Assembly: GCA_919902735.1 (NCBI GenBank)
Contig: CAKKRM010000164.1
Coordinates: forward strand, 1 to 64,000
DNA from: Anaerolineales bacterium
GTDB taxonomy: Bacteria; Chloroflexota; Anaerolineae; Anaerolineales; Villigracilaceae
Reading direction: 5' to 3'
Length of the DNA stretch: 64,000 bases
Positions 308 through 53,610 of this stretch are shown here, in pieces; position 1 is the first letter of the stretch, and each line of letters starts with the position of its first letter. Both the position numbers and the translations under genes were made by a program. The notes beneath the pieces were generated by a model, which saw nothing but the letters and a program-made list of their open reading frames with translations, had not been told where the DNA came from and did no database searches.

Positions 308-931
308 GTGGAGATGGAGAACGAGAATAATTTTGGTGTAGTTTTGAAAAAAATAACTAAATGGGTGGGAACTTTTGCGCTGGTTTTAGCATTTTTGATA
401 TGGGTAATGCTAGACGCGAGATTTAGCGCGAATTACAGCTGGGTGATGCCGGTAAGAGAATGGTATCTGGACAGGATCGTGATTGCGCGAGCACTGCCTG
501 ATAATTTGCCACACACAATACAGCCAAAACAAAAGGCGGATGAGGGGTACTGGTATGAGATGTGGGGGAGGCTGGTGAGCGTGGATTATGCGAGCTATAC
601 CATGACAATCAGAGATAATAGGGGAGAAGAGTGGCAGGTGCGGATGATCCATGCGCCCTACCACGAGGCGAACAGGATAGGAATAGAGATACAAGAGTGG
701 GAGGTGGATAGAGAGACCAGCCAGAAAATAGGCAGGGCGAGACCATTGACCATAGATAGGCGAGAACCAGATAAAACCGAGCCATATCTAGCGGTAGGGG
801 ATATGATGGATATCGTGTGGAAAGATAGCTTGACGCTTGCGCAGATTTATAAAGCTCAGCGCAAGGGAGAGTATTTAGTAATGCTTTCTAGTGATATAAA
901 GCGACCAATACGAAAGGTGGTGGGGAAATGA
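308..931 (+). CDS. Hypothetical protein with N-terminal transmembrane helix
   Basis: 207-aa ORF, hydrophobic N-terminus (TFALVLAFLIWVML), overlaps the next ORF by 4 bp. Confidence 0.7.
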   Translation: MEMENENNFGVVLKKITKWVGTFALVLAFLIWVMLDARFSANYSWVMPVREWYLDRIVIARALPDNLPHTIQPKQKADEGYWYEMWGRLVSVDYASYTMTIRDNRGEEWQVRMIHAPYHEANRIGIEIQEWEVDRETSQKIGRARPLTIDRREPDKTEPYLAVGDMMDIVWKDSLTLAQIYKAQRKGEYLVMLSSDIKRPIRKVVGK

Positions 932-28574: not shown

Positions 28575-28809
28575 GGGGCAATTATAAATGGTTTGGCGTT
28601 TTCGGAAATTACCCTTGAATTTAAGGTGGAAATTTGCGATAATGGTAACGAGCTTTCAAAAATGAAAACCTTGTTGCAAATCTGGTGTGAGGGGTGCAAG
28701 CCGTCAGACTGCCGGGCAATGGCGCTTTCTGCGGGACAATCTGTATGTAGGAGGTGGTATGCACTAAACACAACGCTCCAGTTCTCTGTTTTGAATGTCC
28801 AAACTGATT

Positions 28810-28924
28810 TGGTTGTGTTTCAAAAGAGTTGAAGGATGAACCGTCCCGAAGGTTTTCTCGAAGAATTTGATCGTTTTTTAAACCTTCGGGACGGTTGTTT
28901 CAACTGAAATGAAACACATCCAAC
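28810..28924. repeat. CGTCCCG/CGGGACG palindromic repeat, copy 4
   Basis: GGTTGTGTTTCAAAAGAGTTGAA..ACCGTCCCGAAGGTTT..AAACCTTCGGGACGGT..TTTCAACTGAAATGAAACACATCC. Confidence 0.9.
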
Positions 28925-28945: not shown

Positions 28946-30319
28946 ATGAAGAATAAACCGCTTGTTATTTTGTTAATTGCTTTTCTGATCTTAAGCAGTG
29001 TTTTTGTCACAGCGGCAGCGCCAGACAAGTTGATCGGCGTCAATGTGATCTTGAACACCGACATTACGAATAGCATCCTTGTCGATCTTGGCAAGATGGG
29101 CAAAGTTCGCGATGTAGTTTACGAGATCGACGCTTTAACCATGCAAATTCGTTCATCGAATTTGAGCGCTGTTCGGGGTTTGCCCTATGTAACATCCGTT
29201 ACCCCGGATGCCTCCCGTAACGGCGCCCCGGTTGATACGGTGTTTGTGGAAGATTTTGCGGATGGCCTCAGCACGTGGGATCAGGATGCCATCAATGTGA
29301 CCGATTTTGGCTTCGATAACCGCCAGGTCAATTACGATGGCGCTGGCGTTTATGTGGCTGTTTTGGATACGGGCTTGCTGGATTCCTGGCGGCAATACTT
29401 CCCGCAGGAACGGATTGCAGAAGAATATGCGATTGCCTTTGGCGGCGGCGGCGGGGAAGTTGGGTCAGTTTCGTCCCAGCCAAACAAATGGGAGCACGAT
29501 CAAAATTCGCATGGCACGCATGTGACCAGCACGATTTTGGGCTATAACCTGGGCGGCGTACCCGTCAACGGCGCAGCTCCCATGGCGACTGTGATCCCGG
29601 TCAAGGTTTTGAATCAGAACGGTTCCGGCTGGTCTTCGGTTGTTGCGCGTGGAATCACCTATGTGGCGGACTTGAAAGCCGGCCCGCTGGCAGATTACCC
29701 TGTAGTCATCAACATGTCCCTCGGCGGCCCGGAACTGGATGCGATGGAAAAAGCCGCGATTGATTATGCCATTTCAGAAGGCGTCATCATTGTCGCTTCG
29801 GCTGGCAACTCGGGTACTGCTGGTATGGGGTATCCTGGCGCATATGCGCCGGTCATTTCTGTGGCCGCTTCCGGCTGGGTTGGCGAATGGGCTCCGGTTG
29901 GCAACCGCAGTTGGTGGTGGAATCGCAACGTGGCTGACCCAACCAACCCCGCTGATTTCTACATCACCGATTTCTCCAGCCGCGCCCTTTCCGGGCAGGA
30001 TTTGGATGTCGCTGCGCCCGGTTCATGGGTGGTAGGTCCGTATCAAGTTAACAGTGGGCAGACTTCCTTCTTCTTTCTTGGAGGCACGAGCATGGCAAGC
30101 CCGCATGTGGCGGGTATTGTGGCTCTGATGGCGCAGAAAAATCCCGGCTTAACTGCCGCAAATGCCGAGACCTATCTCGAAACATCGGCCATTGCCCTTG
30201 CGCCCGGATGCCGTACCGTGCTTGGCCCCAGCGGCGCTTCTGAAACTTTCTGTTGGGGAGCAGACGCAACCGGTGCGGGGTTAGCCACCGCAGATGCCGC
30301 TTTGTCTGCAACTCCGTAA
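28946..30319 (+). CDS. Secreted S8 family serine peptidase (subtilisin-like)
   Basis: Signal peptide; VAVLDTGLL, NSHGTHVTSTILG, GGTSMASPHVAGIVALM. Confidence 0.95.
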   Translation: MKNKPLVILLIAFLILSSVFVTAAAPDKLIGVNVILNTDITNSILVDLGKMGKVRDVVYEIDALTMQIRSSNLSAVRGLPYVTSVTPDASRNGAPVDTVFVEDFADGLSTWDQDAINVTDFGFDNRQVNYDGAGVYVAVLDTGLLDSWRQYFPQERIAEEYAIAFGGGGGEVGSVSSQPNKWEHDQNSHGTHVTSTILGYNLGGVPVNGAAPMATVIPVKVLNQNGSGWSSVVARGITYVADLKAGPLADYPVVINMSLGGPELDAMEKAAIDYAISEGVIIVASAGNSGTAGMGYPGAYAPVISVAASGWVGEWAPVGNRSWWWNRNVADPTNPADFYITDFSSRALSGQDLDVAAPGSWVVGPYQVNSGQTSFFFLGGTSMASPHVAGIVALMAQKNPGLTAANAETYLETSAIALAPGCRTVLGPSGASETFCWGADATGAGLATADAALSATP

Positions 30320-30385: not shown

Positions 30386-30528
30386 TGCAGGTTTGTTCAT
30401 TTTTCTAAAATCCAGGCTCTCTCTTGCGCTTTTTCCTTTCGATGCCTGTCTTTCTCCTGTTTGATCTACCATCTGAATTTCAAAAACTCCATCTTGCATT
30501 AATGACATAAATTTGTAATAATAGAAAG

Positions 30529-30616
30529 TGCGTTCAAAAAGGCTAACTCATCGTGAGGTGGGGGCGCAAAGTTATGGGTCTGTACGACTGTACAGACCGC
30601 CAGACTACTGAAGGCA
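30529..30616 (+). promoter_or_regulatory. Cyclic di-GMP-I (GEMM)-like riboswitch aptamer
   Basis: GGCTAACTCATCGTGAGGTGGGGGCGCAAAGTTATGGGTCTGTAC-GACT-GTACAGACCGCCAG; signature GGCGCAAAG..GGGTC..GACCGCC; P1 TGCGTTCA/TGAAGGCA. Confidence 0.78.
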
Positions 30617-30643
30617 ATTATCTTCCTTCGGTAGTTTTATTTG
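30604..30643 (+). terminator. Riboswitch-linked intrinsic terminator
   Basis: ACTACTGAAGG-CAATTATCTT-CCTTCGGTAGTTTTATTT; the 5' arm overlaps the P1 3' strand. Confidence 0.8.
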
Positions 30644-30738
30644 TTTAAAAGGAGGTGATGTGTATCGAATGAGCTGAATTCTTCTACCAGGACTACTGAA
30701 CATAAAAAAAACCAAAACTGTAGTGAGGAGAATTTTCT

Positions 30739-33279
30739 ATGAAAGCACGTTGGATTAATGCAATCTTGATCGTTATGATGCTTGCTGTGGGAATCGTACC
30801 TTCGGTTTCTGCTGATTCAGGCGGCCCGCTTACTCCTGTTTCTCCGCTGGTTTCCGCTGAAACCGGGGAAATGACGGATGAAACGCCAAACCTTTGGTTT
30901 GTAGAGTTGTCTGGCATGCCAGTATCAGAGGGAAATACCTCATCATCGGTGGAATTGGAACATAAAAAATTCCGTGATGAGGCGAAAAAAGAAAAGATCG
31001 AATATAAAGAAGAACATAGCTATGGCAGTTTGTGGAACGGTTTTTCCGTTTCCGCTACAACTGCTGAACTTGGAAAACTGAGCCGCCTGCCTGGAGTTGT
31101 AGCGATTTATCCGGTTATGGTCGTCTCTGTGCCTGAGACCTATACTTCCTCCCTTGACCCTGAACTGTTTACTGCTTTAGCCATGACCGGCGCGGATGTT
31201 GCCCAGTCTGAGTTGGGTTATACAGGCAAAGGCATCAAAGTGGCGGTGATGGATACTGGTATTGATTACGATCATCCTGATCTCGGCGGTTGTTTTGGTC
31301 CGGGCTGCCGTGTTGTCATGGGTTGGGACTTTGTCGGTGATGACTATAATGCCGATGATACTTCTCCCAGCTATAACCCGGTTCCCTCCCCCGATCCTTT
31401 CCCGGATGACTGCAACGGCCATGGTACTCATGTGGCTGGCATCATCGGAGCAAGCGGCGCTGTGACAGGCGTTGCCCCTGAAGTAACCTTTGGCGCGTAC
31501 CGTGTCTTTGGTTGTGAAGGCTCCACTACTGATGATGTTATGCTGGCTGCCATGGAGCGCGCCTACGCGGATAAAATGCAGGTGCTCAATATGAGTATTG
31601 GCTCTGCTTTTGAATGGCCCCAGTCTCCAACCGCTGTAGCCGCTTCCCGCCTGGTGAAGAAGGGCATGGTTGTGGTGGCTTCCATCGGTAATAGCGGCGC
31701 AAATGGCTTATATTCTGCTGGCGCCCCCGGCCTTGGCGAAAATGTGATTGGTGTGGCTTCTTTCGATAACACCCACAACGTGGCTTCTGTCTTTGAGGCA
31801 AACGGCAGGGACATTGGTTATTTCTCCATGTCTTTCTCGGGACCCGTACCCACTTCCGGCTCGCAAGAAGTTGTATATGTTGGACGTGCCTGCACTGCTG
31901 ATCTGCCGCTTTTGGCTAACCCAGCGGGCAAAGTAGCCTTGATTGTGCGCGGCGCATGTACCTTCGGCCAAAAAGCCGCCAACGCGATCAATGCCGGCGC
32001 CAGCGCTGTTATCATTTACAACAGTTCCCCTGGCCTCTTCAGCGGCACTCTGGGCGCGCCGATCGGCGACGGCAGTGTTCCAGTTGTCAGCATTTCAGGG
32101 ACAGATGGATTATTCTTGCGCGCGCAAGCAGCCCCGGCCTTCATGACTTGGACTGACAGGCTCGGTTCCTTCCCCAACCCCACTGGCGGTTTGATCTCTT
32201 CCTTCAGTTCCTATGGGCTTTCCCCTGATCTGGCCCTCAAGCCTGACATTGGCGCTCCCGGTGGCAACATTTATTCAACCTATCCGCTTGAAGAAGGCGG
32301 TTATGCCACTTTGAGCGGCACCTCCATGTCTTCTCCGCATGTGGCTGGCGCTGTGGCGCTATTGCTGCAATCTGCGCCGAAAACCAAGGCGAAAGATGTG
32401 CGTTCCATTTTGCAAAGTACCGCCCAGCCTGCCGATTGGTGGGGCTTCCCCGGAGCCGGTTATCTGGATAGCGTCAATCGCCAGGGCGCCGGTATGCTTA
32501 AAATAGATAGCGCCATTCTGGCATCGGCCACAATCAAGCCTGGGAAACTGTCCCTGGGTGAAAGCCAGAACGGCCCGGTTACTGTGGAGCTGGAAATCGA
32601 GAATAACAGCGAAACAGCCGTTACATACGATTTGTCCTATGAAAACGGCCTTACCACCAGCGGAGTGATCACACCGGACTTCTGGGATTCCTATGCAACT
32701 GTCGCTTTCAGCGAAGCAAGTGTGACGCTCAACAGCGATGAGGAAGCGGAAATTTACGCAACGATCACCGCGCCTGCTGAGCCTCTTCAAGGTCAATATG
32801 GCGGATGGATCGTTTTCACCCCGCGTGATGGCGGACTCGCGTACCGCGTGCCGTTTGCCGGCTTTGTCGGCGATTACCAATCCATTGAGGTGTTGGCGAA
32901 TCCCTTTGGCCTCCCCTGGCTGACAGATCAAAACCTGAACGATGCGACAACCTTTACACTCGCCGATGGAGACCTGCCGTACTTCATCGTACATCTCGAT
33001 CATCAGTCACGTTTGTTCAAGATGGAAGCTTTCAAGGCCTCCAATGGTAAATCCATAGGCTCGATCGTGACGCTGGACTACATGATCCGCAACAGCACAA
33101 CCACCGGCTTCTTCGCATTTCCATGGGATGGCACAACCACCAAAGGCAAGAAAGAATTTACTGCGCCTGACGGCCAGTATTACGTAGTGATTTCCGTGCT
33201 TAAGGCGTTGGGCAAATCCGACAACCCCGCAGATTGGGAAACCTGGACCTCCCCAGTCTTTACCCTGGACCGCCCGTAA
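30739..33279 (+). CDS. Secreted S8 family serine peptidase with PA domain
   Basis: VAVMDTGIDYDHPDLGG, GHGTHVAGIIGASG, GTSMSSPHVAGAVALLL; PA-like insertion VGRACTADLPLLANPAGKVALIVRGACTFGQKAANAINAGA. Confidence 0.95.
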   Translation: MKARWINAILIVMMLAVGIVPSVSADSGGPLTPVSPLVSAETGEMTDETPNLWFVELSGMPVSEGNTSSSVELEHKKFRDEAKKEKIEYKEEHSYGSLWNGFSVSATTAELGKLSRLPGVVAIYPVMVVSVPETYTSSLDPELFTALAMTGADVAQSELGYTGKGIKVAVMDTGIDYDHPDLGGCFGPGCRVVMGWDFVGDDYNADDTSPSYNPVPSPDPFPDDCNGHGTHVAGIIGASGAVTGVAPEVTFGAYRVFGCEGSTTDDVMLAAMERAYADKMQVLNMSIGSAFEWPQSPTAVAASRLVKKGMVVVASIGNSGANGLYSAGAPGLGENVIGVASFDNTHNVASVFEANGRDIGYFSMSFSGPVPTSGSQEVVYVGRACTADLPLLANPAGKVALIVRGACTFGQKAANAINAGASAVIIYNSSPGLFSGTLGAPIGDGSVPVVSISGTDGLFLRAQAAPAFMTWTDRLGSFPNPTGGLISSFSSYGLSPDLALKPDIGAPGGNIYSTYPLEEGGYATLSGTSMSSPHVAGAVALLLQSAPKTKAKDVRSILQSTAQPADWWGFPGAGYLDSVNRQGAGMLKIDSAILASATIKPGKLSLGESQNGPVTVELEIENNSETAVTYDLSYENGLTTSGVITPDFWDSYATVAFSEASVTLNSDEEAEIYATITAPAEPLQGQYGGWIVFTPRDGGLAYRVPFAGFVGDYQSIEVLANPFGLPWLTDQNLNDATTFTLADGDLPYFIVHLDHQSRLFKMEAFKASNGKSIGSIVTLDYMIRNSTTTGFFAFPWDGTTTKGKKEFTAPDGQYYVVISVLKALGKSDNPADWETWTSPVFTLDRP

Positions 33280-42510: not shown

Positions 42511-43641
42511 ATGGTTGTTGAGCCCAGTCGAGATATGGATAGCTTCGCCTTCATCATTCATCCCATCGATCCCAAGCGCGATGTCAGCCGCAAGTTCCCG
42601 TTTTTAGGAAAGGCGCTTTCAGAAAGACAGATCGATTTTTTCTCCACCTTCTTTCCCCCCGTTTATATTTCGGAGATCGAGGGCATTACATCCCAGGCTA
42701 CGGGCAAAACCATCAAAGGCTGGTTCATTGCCTGCCCGTACACCCCGCGCCGCATGATGCAGTTGCCTGAGCGCACGGTCTATAATAAAATTATCCAAAC
42801 TGGGCGCATGGCGGAGAAACTCGGCGCGAACATTCTTGGTCTCGGCGCGTTCACTTCAGTGGTTGGCGATGCGGGCGTAACGATTGCGAACGCATTGGAT
42901 GTACCCGTTACCACAGGCGACTCTTTCACCATTGCCATGGCTGTGCAAGCCATACGGGATGCGGCCAAAGTGATGGATATAAAAATGGCAGATGCGACGG
43001 TGGCCGTCGTGGGCGCCACGGGAGCGATAGGACGCGTCTGCTCCGCGCTGTTGGCTGGGGAGGCCGCCCGGACATTGCTCGTGGCCCGGGATGAGAAAAA
43101 ACTCGAAGCCTTGAGAGACAGGCTCCAGATTAAGACGCGAAGCGAGCTTGTCATCAGCACGAAGATGGATGTTTTAAAGGATGCGCAATTGATTTTAACG
43201 GTTACAAGTTCCATTCAGGATGTCATCCGCCCGGAACATTTGCAGCCGGGCAGTGTGGTTTGCGATGTGGCGCGCCCCCGTGATGTTTCTGCAATGGTGG
43301 CGGCAGTCAGAGATGATATATTAGTGATTGATGGCGGTATGGTGGATGTGCCAGGCCCCGTGGATTTCCATTTTAATTTCGGCTTTCCGGATGGCAAGGC
43401 GTATGCCTGCATGGCAGAGACGATTGCACTGGCCTTGGAAGGCCGTTTTGAAGATTACACGATCGGCAGGGAGATTACGCTGGAACGTGTGCAGGAGATC
43501 ACCGCGATCTCGGAGAAACATGGGTTTCGCATGAGCGGTTTCCGCTCGTTCGAGCGTGAAGTAACCGAAGAACAAATTGAAGCCGTTCGACATAATGCCC
43601 GCAATGGGAAGCGACGCGCTTACAAAGCGTTGCACGCATGA
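42511..43641 (+). CDS. Long-chain acyl-ACP reductase-like (AAR-like) Rossmann protein
   Basis: GLGAFTSVVGDAGVTIAN..TVAVVGATGAIGRVCSALLAGEAARTLLVARDEKKLEALRD..AYACMAETIALALEGRFEDYTIGREITLERVQEITAISEKHGFR. Confidence 0.7.
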   Translation: MVVEPSRDMDSFAFIIHPIDPKRDVSRKFPFLGKALSERQIDFFSTFFPPVYISEIEGITSQATGKTIKGWFIACPYTPRRMMQLPERTVYNKIIQTGRMAEKLGANILGLGAFTSVVGDAGVTIANALDVPVTTGDSFTIAMAVQAIRDAAKVMDIKMADATVAVVGATGAIGRVCSALLAGEAARTLLVARDEKKLEALRDRLQIKTRSELVISTKMDVLKDAQLILTVTSSIQDVIRPEHLQPGSVVCDVARPRDVSAMVAAVRDDILVIDGGMVDVPGPVDFHFNFGFPDGKAYACMAETIALALEGRFEDYTIGREITLERVQEITAISEKHGFRMSGFRSFEREVTEEQIEAVRHNARNGKRRAYKALHA

Positions 43642-43732
43642 GACATGCGTAATCAGATTAGAATTAAGCTGTGTACCCGCAATTTCCATCAAAACGTTTC
43701 GAAAATTTTGCGGCAAGCGGCAGGAGGCTCAT

Positions 43733-44638
43733 ATGAGTAATGCTCGCCTTTTGGTAGTGGAAGACGATATCGATATCGCAAACATGTTGAAGATCTATTT
43801 TACGGGTCTTCAGTATGATGTGGATGTTGCGAATCGCGGAAAGGACGCCCTGGATAAAACCAAGCAGGTCCTGCCGCATTTAATCGTGCTGGACATCATG
43901 CTGCCCGACATTGACGGGTACGAAGTCTGCCGCACCTTGCGCACCAGCACACGCACCAGCCATATCCCGGTCATCTTCCTGACCCAAAAAGATGAACGCA
44001 GCGACAAACTGCAGGGTCTTGAACTCGGCGCGGACGATTACATCACCAAGCCTTTCGATATTGAAGAATTGAAACTGCGCGTGCAGGGAGCCATCCGCCG
44101 TTCGGAACGGGAAAGCCTGACCGACCCGCGCTCCGGTCTGCCCGCAGGGCGTTTGATCGAAGAGCAGCTGCGCCGCATCATTCGTGAGGAGAAATGGGCG
44201 CTGCTGGATGTGCGCATCAATAACTTTGAAGCCTTCAAGGATGTGTATGGCTTTGTGGCAGGCGACGATGTGATGCGTTTTGCCGCCATGCTGATCGGCG
44301 AGGTGGTGGATGAGTTGGGCACAACCAGCGATTTTATTGGTCACGCGGGAGGCGACAACTTCATCATCATCACCACGAACGAGGCCGCGCCGAACATTCA
44401 AAAGAAACTAAAAGATCGCTTTGCCGTGGAAGTGCAAAGCCACTATAATTTTATCGACCGCCAACAGGGTTTTATCCAGGCGCCCAAATCGGAAGGCGGC
44501 GTGGAAAAGGTGGGTTTTATGACTTTCTCAGCGGGAATGGTTTCGCCGAGCCTGCATTCGTTCGCCGATATTCGTGAGATCACTGAACTTGCGGCTGAAG
44601 CTCGAAGACAGGATGCGGCGGCCGCCTCCACCGCATAA
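43733..44638 (+). CDS. Response regulator with degenerate GGDEF-like output domain
   Basis: RLLVVEDDIDIANMLKIYF..IVLDIMLPDIDGYEVC..IFLTQKDERSDKLQGLELGADDYITKPF; C-terminal YGFVAGDDVMRF..GHAGGDNFIIIT. Internal ATG 43733 with CAGGAGG upstream. Confidence 0.88.
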   Translation: MSNARLLVVEDDIDIANMLKIYFTGLQYDVDVANRGKDALDKTKQVLPHLIVLDIMLPDIDGYEVCRTLRTSTRTSHIPVIFLTQKDERSDKLQGLELGADDYITKPFDIEELKLRVQGAIRRSERESLTDPRSGLPAGRLIEEQLRRIIREEKWALLDVRINNFEAFKDVYGFVAGDDVMRFAAMLIGEVVDELGTTSDFIGHAGGDNFIIITTNEAAPNIQKKLKDRFAVEVQSHYNFIDRQQGFIQAPKSEGGVEKVGFMTFSAGMVSPSLHSFADIREITELAAEARRQDAAAASTA

Positions 44639-53428: not shown

Positions 53429-53504
53429 CCCGCTCAAGCCGCCGTCCCCGGCGGCGTATTTTTTACTTGACATCCCATCCTCACGGTCATATACTCATTT
53501 CACA

Positions 53505-53594
53505 ATTGAACGGGGAGCCTTTTCGAAAGGCTGAGAGGAGCGTGAACGCGCTCGACCCGCAACACCTGATCTGGTTAATACCAGCGGAGGGATT
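53505..53594 (+). promoter_or_regulatory. TPP riboswitch (THI element)
   Basis: ACGGGGAGCC..GGCTGAGAGG..GACCCGCAACACCTGATCTGGTTAATACCAGCGGAGGGA. Confidence 0.97.
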
Positions 53595-53610
53595 TTCTCA
53601 TTAAGCCTGC

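Follow-up and report, generated by a model that had tools for sequence, protein, structure and literature searches.

The window, a 64,000-nt stretch of DNA from an Anaerolineales bacterium, carries a gene for a secreted subtilase, preceded by a leader that holds, in order, a promoter-like sequence, a riboswitch aptamer, an intrinsic terminator, a distal Shine-Dalgarno (SD)-like element and the SD of the gene itself (Table 1). An earlier reading made from the letters alone (hereafter, the sequence-only reading) had placed an S8/PA protease of 846 residues here, and Pfam agreed; the protein comprises a signal peptide (identified by eye), I9, S8 with a PA insert, and fn3_5. The same reading had taken AAAGGAGGTG (30648-30657) as the SD of this gene; that stretch ends 81 nt ahead of the ATG, and the real SD is the GAGGAG close to the start codon. 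The leader between the end of the terminator (30642) and the subtilase start measures 96 nt.

The promoter-like hexamers predict a transcript start at ~30529, i.e., at the 5' strand of P1, and the riboswitch would form the 5' end of the subtilase transcript and regulate its transcription. Ortholog leaders carry TTGCAT or TTGCCT followed by TATAAT at the equivalent place; a strict sigma-70 promoter scan reported no promoter here at its thresholds.

A second subtilase gene (28946-30319) lies directly upstream of the locus. AGGAGGTG is found ~190 nt ahead of its start (28750-28757), and a long inverted repeat (~28838-28897) lies between that sequence and the start. No Rfam riboswitch was detected ahead of this upstream gene, and a degenerate aptamer suspected there by eye (GCCGTCAGACTGCCGG) was rejected, as it matched no c-di-GMP family even at E 10. 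Elsewhere in the window, we observed a TPP riboswitch (53501-53609; RF00059, 73.6 bits) and, 13 kb from the riboswitch studied here, a receiver domain fused to a GGDEF domain (43577-44638) that is weak (42 bits) and degenerate, with GGDNF in the motif region.

Table 1. Features of the subtilase locus, in window coordinates
Feature	Position	Strand	Basis
Promoter-like TTGCAT - 17 nt - AATAAT, with TG extension	30494..30522	+	by eye
P1 5' strand TGCGTTCA, pairs with 30609-30616 (7/8)	30529..30536	+	
c-di-GMP-I (GEMM-I) aptamer	30531..30612	+	RF01051, 57.3 bits, model 1-87
G, equivalent of Vc2 G20 (selectivity position)	30541	+	RF01051 alignment, base checked
P2 hairpin, GUGA tetraloop 30553-30556	30547..30562	+	RF01051 alignment
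A, equivalent of Vc2 A47	30568	+	RF01051 alignment, base checked
P3, continuous helix GGTCTGTAC-GACT-GTACAGACC, without UCUAA tetraloop receptor	30577..30598	+	sequence
Intrinsic terminator, 30602-30614 with 30625-30637, then TTTTATTT (30635-30642)	30602..30642	+	pairing, folding, comparison
C, equivalent of Vc2 C92; G-paired in the terminator in 16/17 leaders	30608	+	RF01051 alignment, leader comparison
P1 3' strand TGAAGGCA, pairs with 30529-30536	30609..30616	+	
Distal SD-like element AAAGGAGGTGAT, distinct from the gene's own SD	30648..30659	+	12/12 complementary to 16S 3' tail AUCACCUCCUUU
Actual SD GAGGAG, 8 nt to ATG 30739	30725..30730	+	sequence; equivalent SD in orthologs
Secreted subtilase, 846 aa	30739..33279	+	Pfam Peptidase_S8, PA, Inhibitor_I9, fn3_5

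The aptamer and its competing terminator

A covariance-model search with RF01051 (c-di-GMP-I), the check that the sequence-only reading had proposed for its GEMM architecture, bore that architecture out: the match at 30531-30612 on the plus strand covers the full model and scores well above the cut-off of 35 bits (E 1.4e-8 over the window). Against RF03167 (c-di-GMP-I-GGC) the same aptamer scored 54.1 bits, missing that family's cut-off of 59. The P1 helix that had been drawn was also recovered upon recounting its pairs, with a G-G mismatch as the sole unpaired position among eight.

Docking of a GAAA tetraloop into a receptor in P3 is common in the c-di-GMP-I class, though neither universal nor obligatory. 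The TCTA[ACG] receptor motif was present in P3 of 33 of the 34 other GEMM-I aptamers of these genomes and absent from the window aptamer. When the aptamers of the subtilase leaders were read by eye, their P2 loop was GNGA or GNAA, never GAAA, and their P3 was continuous, features that, judged from sequence, point to a replaced tertiary contact.

The terminator described earlier, a perfect hairpin whose 5' arm overlaps P1, stands in part. The overlap holds and the stem extends to 13 pairs, wobbles included, with a 5' arm that takes up C92 together with the 3' strand of P1; it is not strictly perfect, since U30609 and G30630 form a wobble, and the tail is a T tract with interruptions. A strict terminator scan at its thresholds left the hairpin at 30602-30637 unreported, probably owing to a loop that, at 10 nt, is longer than the scan allows.

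P1 and the terminator compete for one 3' strand, C30608 included, and are thus mutually exclusive. In minimum-energy folds calculated by transcript length, the P1 state prevailed up to ~30628 and the terminator state from ~30632, with -42.4 (terminator) against -35.0 kcal/mol (P1). Given that the terminator wins from ~30632 onward, the ligand would have to lock the aptamer within the ~20 nt that lie between completion of the aptamer and closing of the terminator.

Further downstream, at 30688-30701, the arm shared by aptamer and terminator is nearly repeated (CCAGGACTACTGAA, as compared with CCAGACTACTGAA at 30600-30612). The possibility that part of this repeat, ACTACTGAA (30692-30700), offers the terminator an additional pairing partner was rejected for want of covariation: in a 96%-identical relative (L037/L045) the terminator arms have become GCTGCTGAAGG/CCTTTGGCAGT, yet ACTACTGAA persists in the repeat.

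Terminator conservation and the direction of control

The relatives compared were Chloroflexota metagenome-assembled genomes; counting that of the window, 30 of the 399 genomes from this order encode the subtilase. For the terminator we compared 17 distinct aptamer-bearing subtilase leaders, the window's included, from three families of the order. All 17 contain the terminator, which in each begins in the CCAG of the aptamer and spans C92. Over 8 terminator columns in these leaders, 91% of the cells were paired, as compared with 21-56% when the partner was slid; with partners shuffled (n=500), the mean was 86% and the maximum 0.897, against 0.912 for the true partners. Double compensatory changes were evident in two of the columns, one with T-A in 8 leaders and C-G in 9, the other with A-T in 2 and G-C in 14, counts that are not independent events, as the 17 rows share kinship. 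P1 itself is short (2-4 pairs) in 7 of the 17 leaders. The aptamers of this group score above the RF01051 or the RF03167 cut-off, or just below the latter, and retain A47. In six subtilase orthologs (L046, L052, L056, L064, L066 and L067) no aptamer was detected; a candidate divergent aptamer in L038 was dismissed, as it scored 10.1 bits to RF03167 and has probably decayed. In L049, a second GEMM-I lies downstream of the subtilase (457-537, minus strand) and probably belongs to a neighbouring gene with a switch of its own.

Positions 20, 47 and 92, the ligand contacts in the numbering of the Vc2 structures, are G, A and C in 16 of the 17 leaders, the window's included, the exception being L065, with A20. 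The base equivalent to Vc2 G20, which the sequence-only reading had left open, is thus a G in the window, as in the c-di-GMP type.

The conserved terminator can form only with the 3' strand and C92 taken from the aptamer itself, an arrangement that implies ON logic. Without ligand, the 3' strand (30602-30614, with C30608) would be captured by 30625-30637, the terminator would form and transcription would stop. With c-di-GMP bound, C30608 and P1 would be held within the aptamer, the terminator would fail to form and RNA polymerase would read through, exposing AAAGGAGGTGAT, which sits immediately 3' of the terminator and ~80 nt ahead of the true SD. The ON switch by a P1-blocked terminator proposed at the outset finds support in the match to Rfam, in the G/A/C signature and, strongly, in the terminator of the 17 leaders with its compensatory changes, and we regard it as very probable, on this comparative evidence, that the locus is a class I c-di-GMP riboswitch exerting terminator-based ON control over a secreted subtilase.

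Two other readings bear on the ligand and on the sign of control. The natural ligand could be 3',3'-cGAMP, or the switch could be promiscuous, as position 20 is a factor in selectivity and no hard filter, so that G20 selects without strictly excluding (PMC9262584), and A20 is found in the ortholog aptamer L065 and in several further GEMM-I aptamers of the group. Yet it is the G20A change that has been associated with cGAMP (PMC6274999), whereas the window and 15 of the 16 other leaders carry G20, and the window's genome gave 18 GGDEF matches (16 above the family cut-off alone), i.e., at least 16 such domains above cut-off; cGAMP or promiscuous sensing is accordingly very unlikely. Control could also be of the OFF or translational kind, with the ligand lowering protease expression through, for example, another downstream pairing. 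GEMM-I riboswitches of either sign are known, Cd1 being an OFF switch (PMC9262584), and folding predictions place the window's proximal SD in a paired state (probability of being unpaired 0.11, as compared with 0.36 in shuffles). Such pairing is, however, no general trait of the leaders (Wilcoxon p 0.12), and the terminator is the only expression platform conserved over all 17, rendering this reading highly improbable. Terminator-based ON control by c-di-GMP would tie c-di-GMP signalling to subtilase secretion in a phylum whose signalling has been little studied, through a platform that three families of this order have kept.

The window's genome holds seven GEMM-I aptamers. Three lie back to back (L003, L006 and L007; G000:C315:9138-9402, minus strand), with A, A and then G at position 20, possibly combining cGAMP-type and c-di-GMP-type sensing; L004 and L001 form a tandem pair (G000:C299:4517-4784), with A20 in the first and G20 in the second.

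A distal Shine-Dalgarno-like element

Of five relatives examined, four have a single copy of the 16S tail to which the distal element is complementary; the window's own assembly gave no match to the 16S tail pattern. Among 46 subtilase and lipoprotein leaders, GGAGG was present in 43, at 50-107 nt 5' of the start codon, and CCTCC in none; for the subtilase leaders alone, the figures were 21 of 24 (51-105 nt ahead of the start) and 0. These leaders fall within L040-L067, L077-L098 and L199-L231 of our set. In the 43 leaders GGAGG is fixed by the site selection itself; the AAA and TGAT that flank it are enriched as well, and the conservation runs into TG[AG]T, extending the match to the 16S tail. 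The six orthologs in which no aptamer was detected have all kept the element, which is hence better conserved than the riboswitch.

The element also recurs ahead of other genes. AAGGAGGTG occurs 35 times in the window's genome, and 9 of 30 sites examined are followed, at a distance of 64-92 nt, by a start codon with an SD of its own. The genes behind these nine were classed by eye as secreted, namely lipoproteins with a lipobox and the subtilase; eight were translated and their open frame confirmed, the class of the ninth (L076 or L069) being less certain. Nine of 30 compares with ~2% expected (binomial p ~2e-9), a significance that is overstated, since the distance window was picked post hoc. 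Motif-position histograms for single genes, built on simple ORF calls, were underpowered, and splitting genes into secreted and non-secreted gave a clearer picture: 5 of 130 secreted genes and 0 of 758 others had a near match 70-100 nt ahead of them (Fisher p 6e-5), as counted in 1.8 Mb of the window's genome together with a complete relative. Orthologs of two of the lipoproteins, from several families of the order, carry the element at 72-107 nt, and in one lipoprotein group (L220-L223) it lies directly 3' of a terminator-like hairpin, as in the riboswitch leader.

What the element does is a hypothesis at this stage. In the cry3A leader of Bacillus thuringiensis, a non-initiating SD-like site near -129, termed STAB-SD, binds 30S subunits that block RNase J1 (PMC4113751). 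By analogy with this case, we tentatively suggest that the distal element is an mRNA stabiliser of the STAB-SD kind, a non-initiating, 16S-complementary site at which a bound 30S would shield the downstream mRNA from 5'-3' decay by RNase J. The genome encodes an RNase J (TIGR00649, 578 bits against a cut-off of 400), and a literature search of partial coverage returned no report of a STAB-SD-like element in Chloroflexota. The main rival to a stabiliser is a site for ribosome standby or pre-loading, which would raise translation, or transcription-translation coupling. The full 16S complementarity, the similar distance and the secreted genes fit this equally, and nothing speaks against it specifically; the cry3A precedent alone favours stabilisation (PMC4113751), and we consider a standby role somewhat unlikely.

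Two further roles have more against them. The element might drive translation of a short leader peptide as its SD, and the window indeed has GTG TAT CGA ATG AGC TGA at a 4-nt spacing; across leaders, however, start codons are depleted behind the element, with one at 4-12 nt in 3 of 43 leaders as compared with 12.6 expected, and in 2 of 30 as compared with 8.4 once near-identical leaders were thinned. On this depletion the leader-peptide role was set aside, and we hold it to be very unlikely for AAAGGAGGTGAT. Alternatively, the element could compete, by RNA pairing, for a pyrimidine tract that would otherwise mask the proximal SD. A conserved TTTCTTCTTT tract able to pair with either SD is indeed present in one lipoprotein group, where the predicted accessibility of the distal element is mostly below that of shuffles. 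Over the 46 leaders, by contrast, accessibility did not differ from shuffles (Wilcoxon p 0.52), and the conserved TG[AG]T fits the 16S tail and not the tract; tract competition was thus set aside as a general role, and is unlikely.

As to the broader statement, that the order shares a non-initiating, 16S-complementary element, 50-107 nt before genes of secreted proteins, that acts as an mRNA stabiliser or a ribosome-loading site, we find the case evenly balanced; directly 3' of the riboswitch terminator, such an element would mean that read-through also yields a protected message. The element is the more surprising of the two findings: it outlasts the riboswitch, start codons are scarce behind it, and it is found again before genes of secreted lipoproteins. 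A STAB-SD-type mechanism, known from Bacillus, is directly testable here in Chloroflexota.

Comparison with known systems

The riboswitch is a further case of a known class and not a new type. With RF01051 aptamers of the Vc2 type it shares the P1/P2/P3 three-way junction, G20/A47/C92 and a score above the curated cut-off; unlike them, it has GUGA instead of GAAA in the P2 loop and a continuous P3 that lacks the UCUAA receptor. Control by Vc2 itself is translational. RF03167, the "GGC" of whose name presumably refers to positions 20/47/92, is similar in having a P3 without receptor, and many of the ortholog aptamers pass its cut-off, whereas the window aptamer falls short of it and has A30568 at position 47, where the RF03167 consensus has G (CGCGAAG).

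In its mechanism, the closest likeness is to the pilM riboswitch of Geobacter metallireducens, a transcriptional ON switch for cGAMP whose terminator sequesters the ligand-pairing C (PMC9262584). Both draw a terminator arm from the 3' strand of the aptamer and sequester the ligand-pairing C, with ON logic that is shown for pilM (PMC9262584) and predicted for the window; they differ at position 20, which is A in pilM and G in the window, and in the target, which is here a protease. The distal element, for its part, resembles the STAB-SD of cry3A (PMC4113751) in being an SD-like, presumably non-initiating site far 5' of the start that is complementary to 16S rRNA, with RNase J encoded in the genome, a likeness that for the window holds at the level of sequence. 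It differs in belonging to another phylum, in lying behind a riboswitch terminator and in recurring before secreted lipoproteins, and the stabilisation known for cry3A is here a proposed role.
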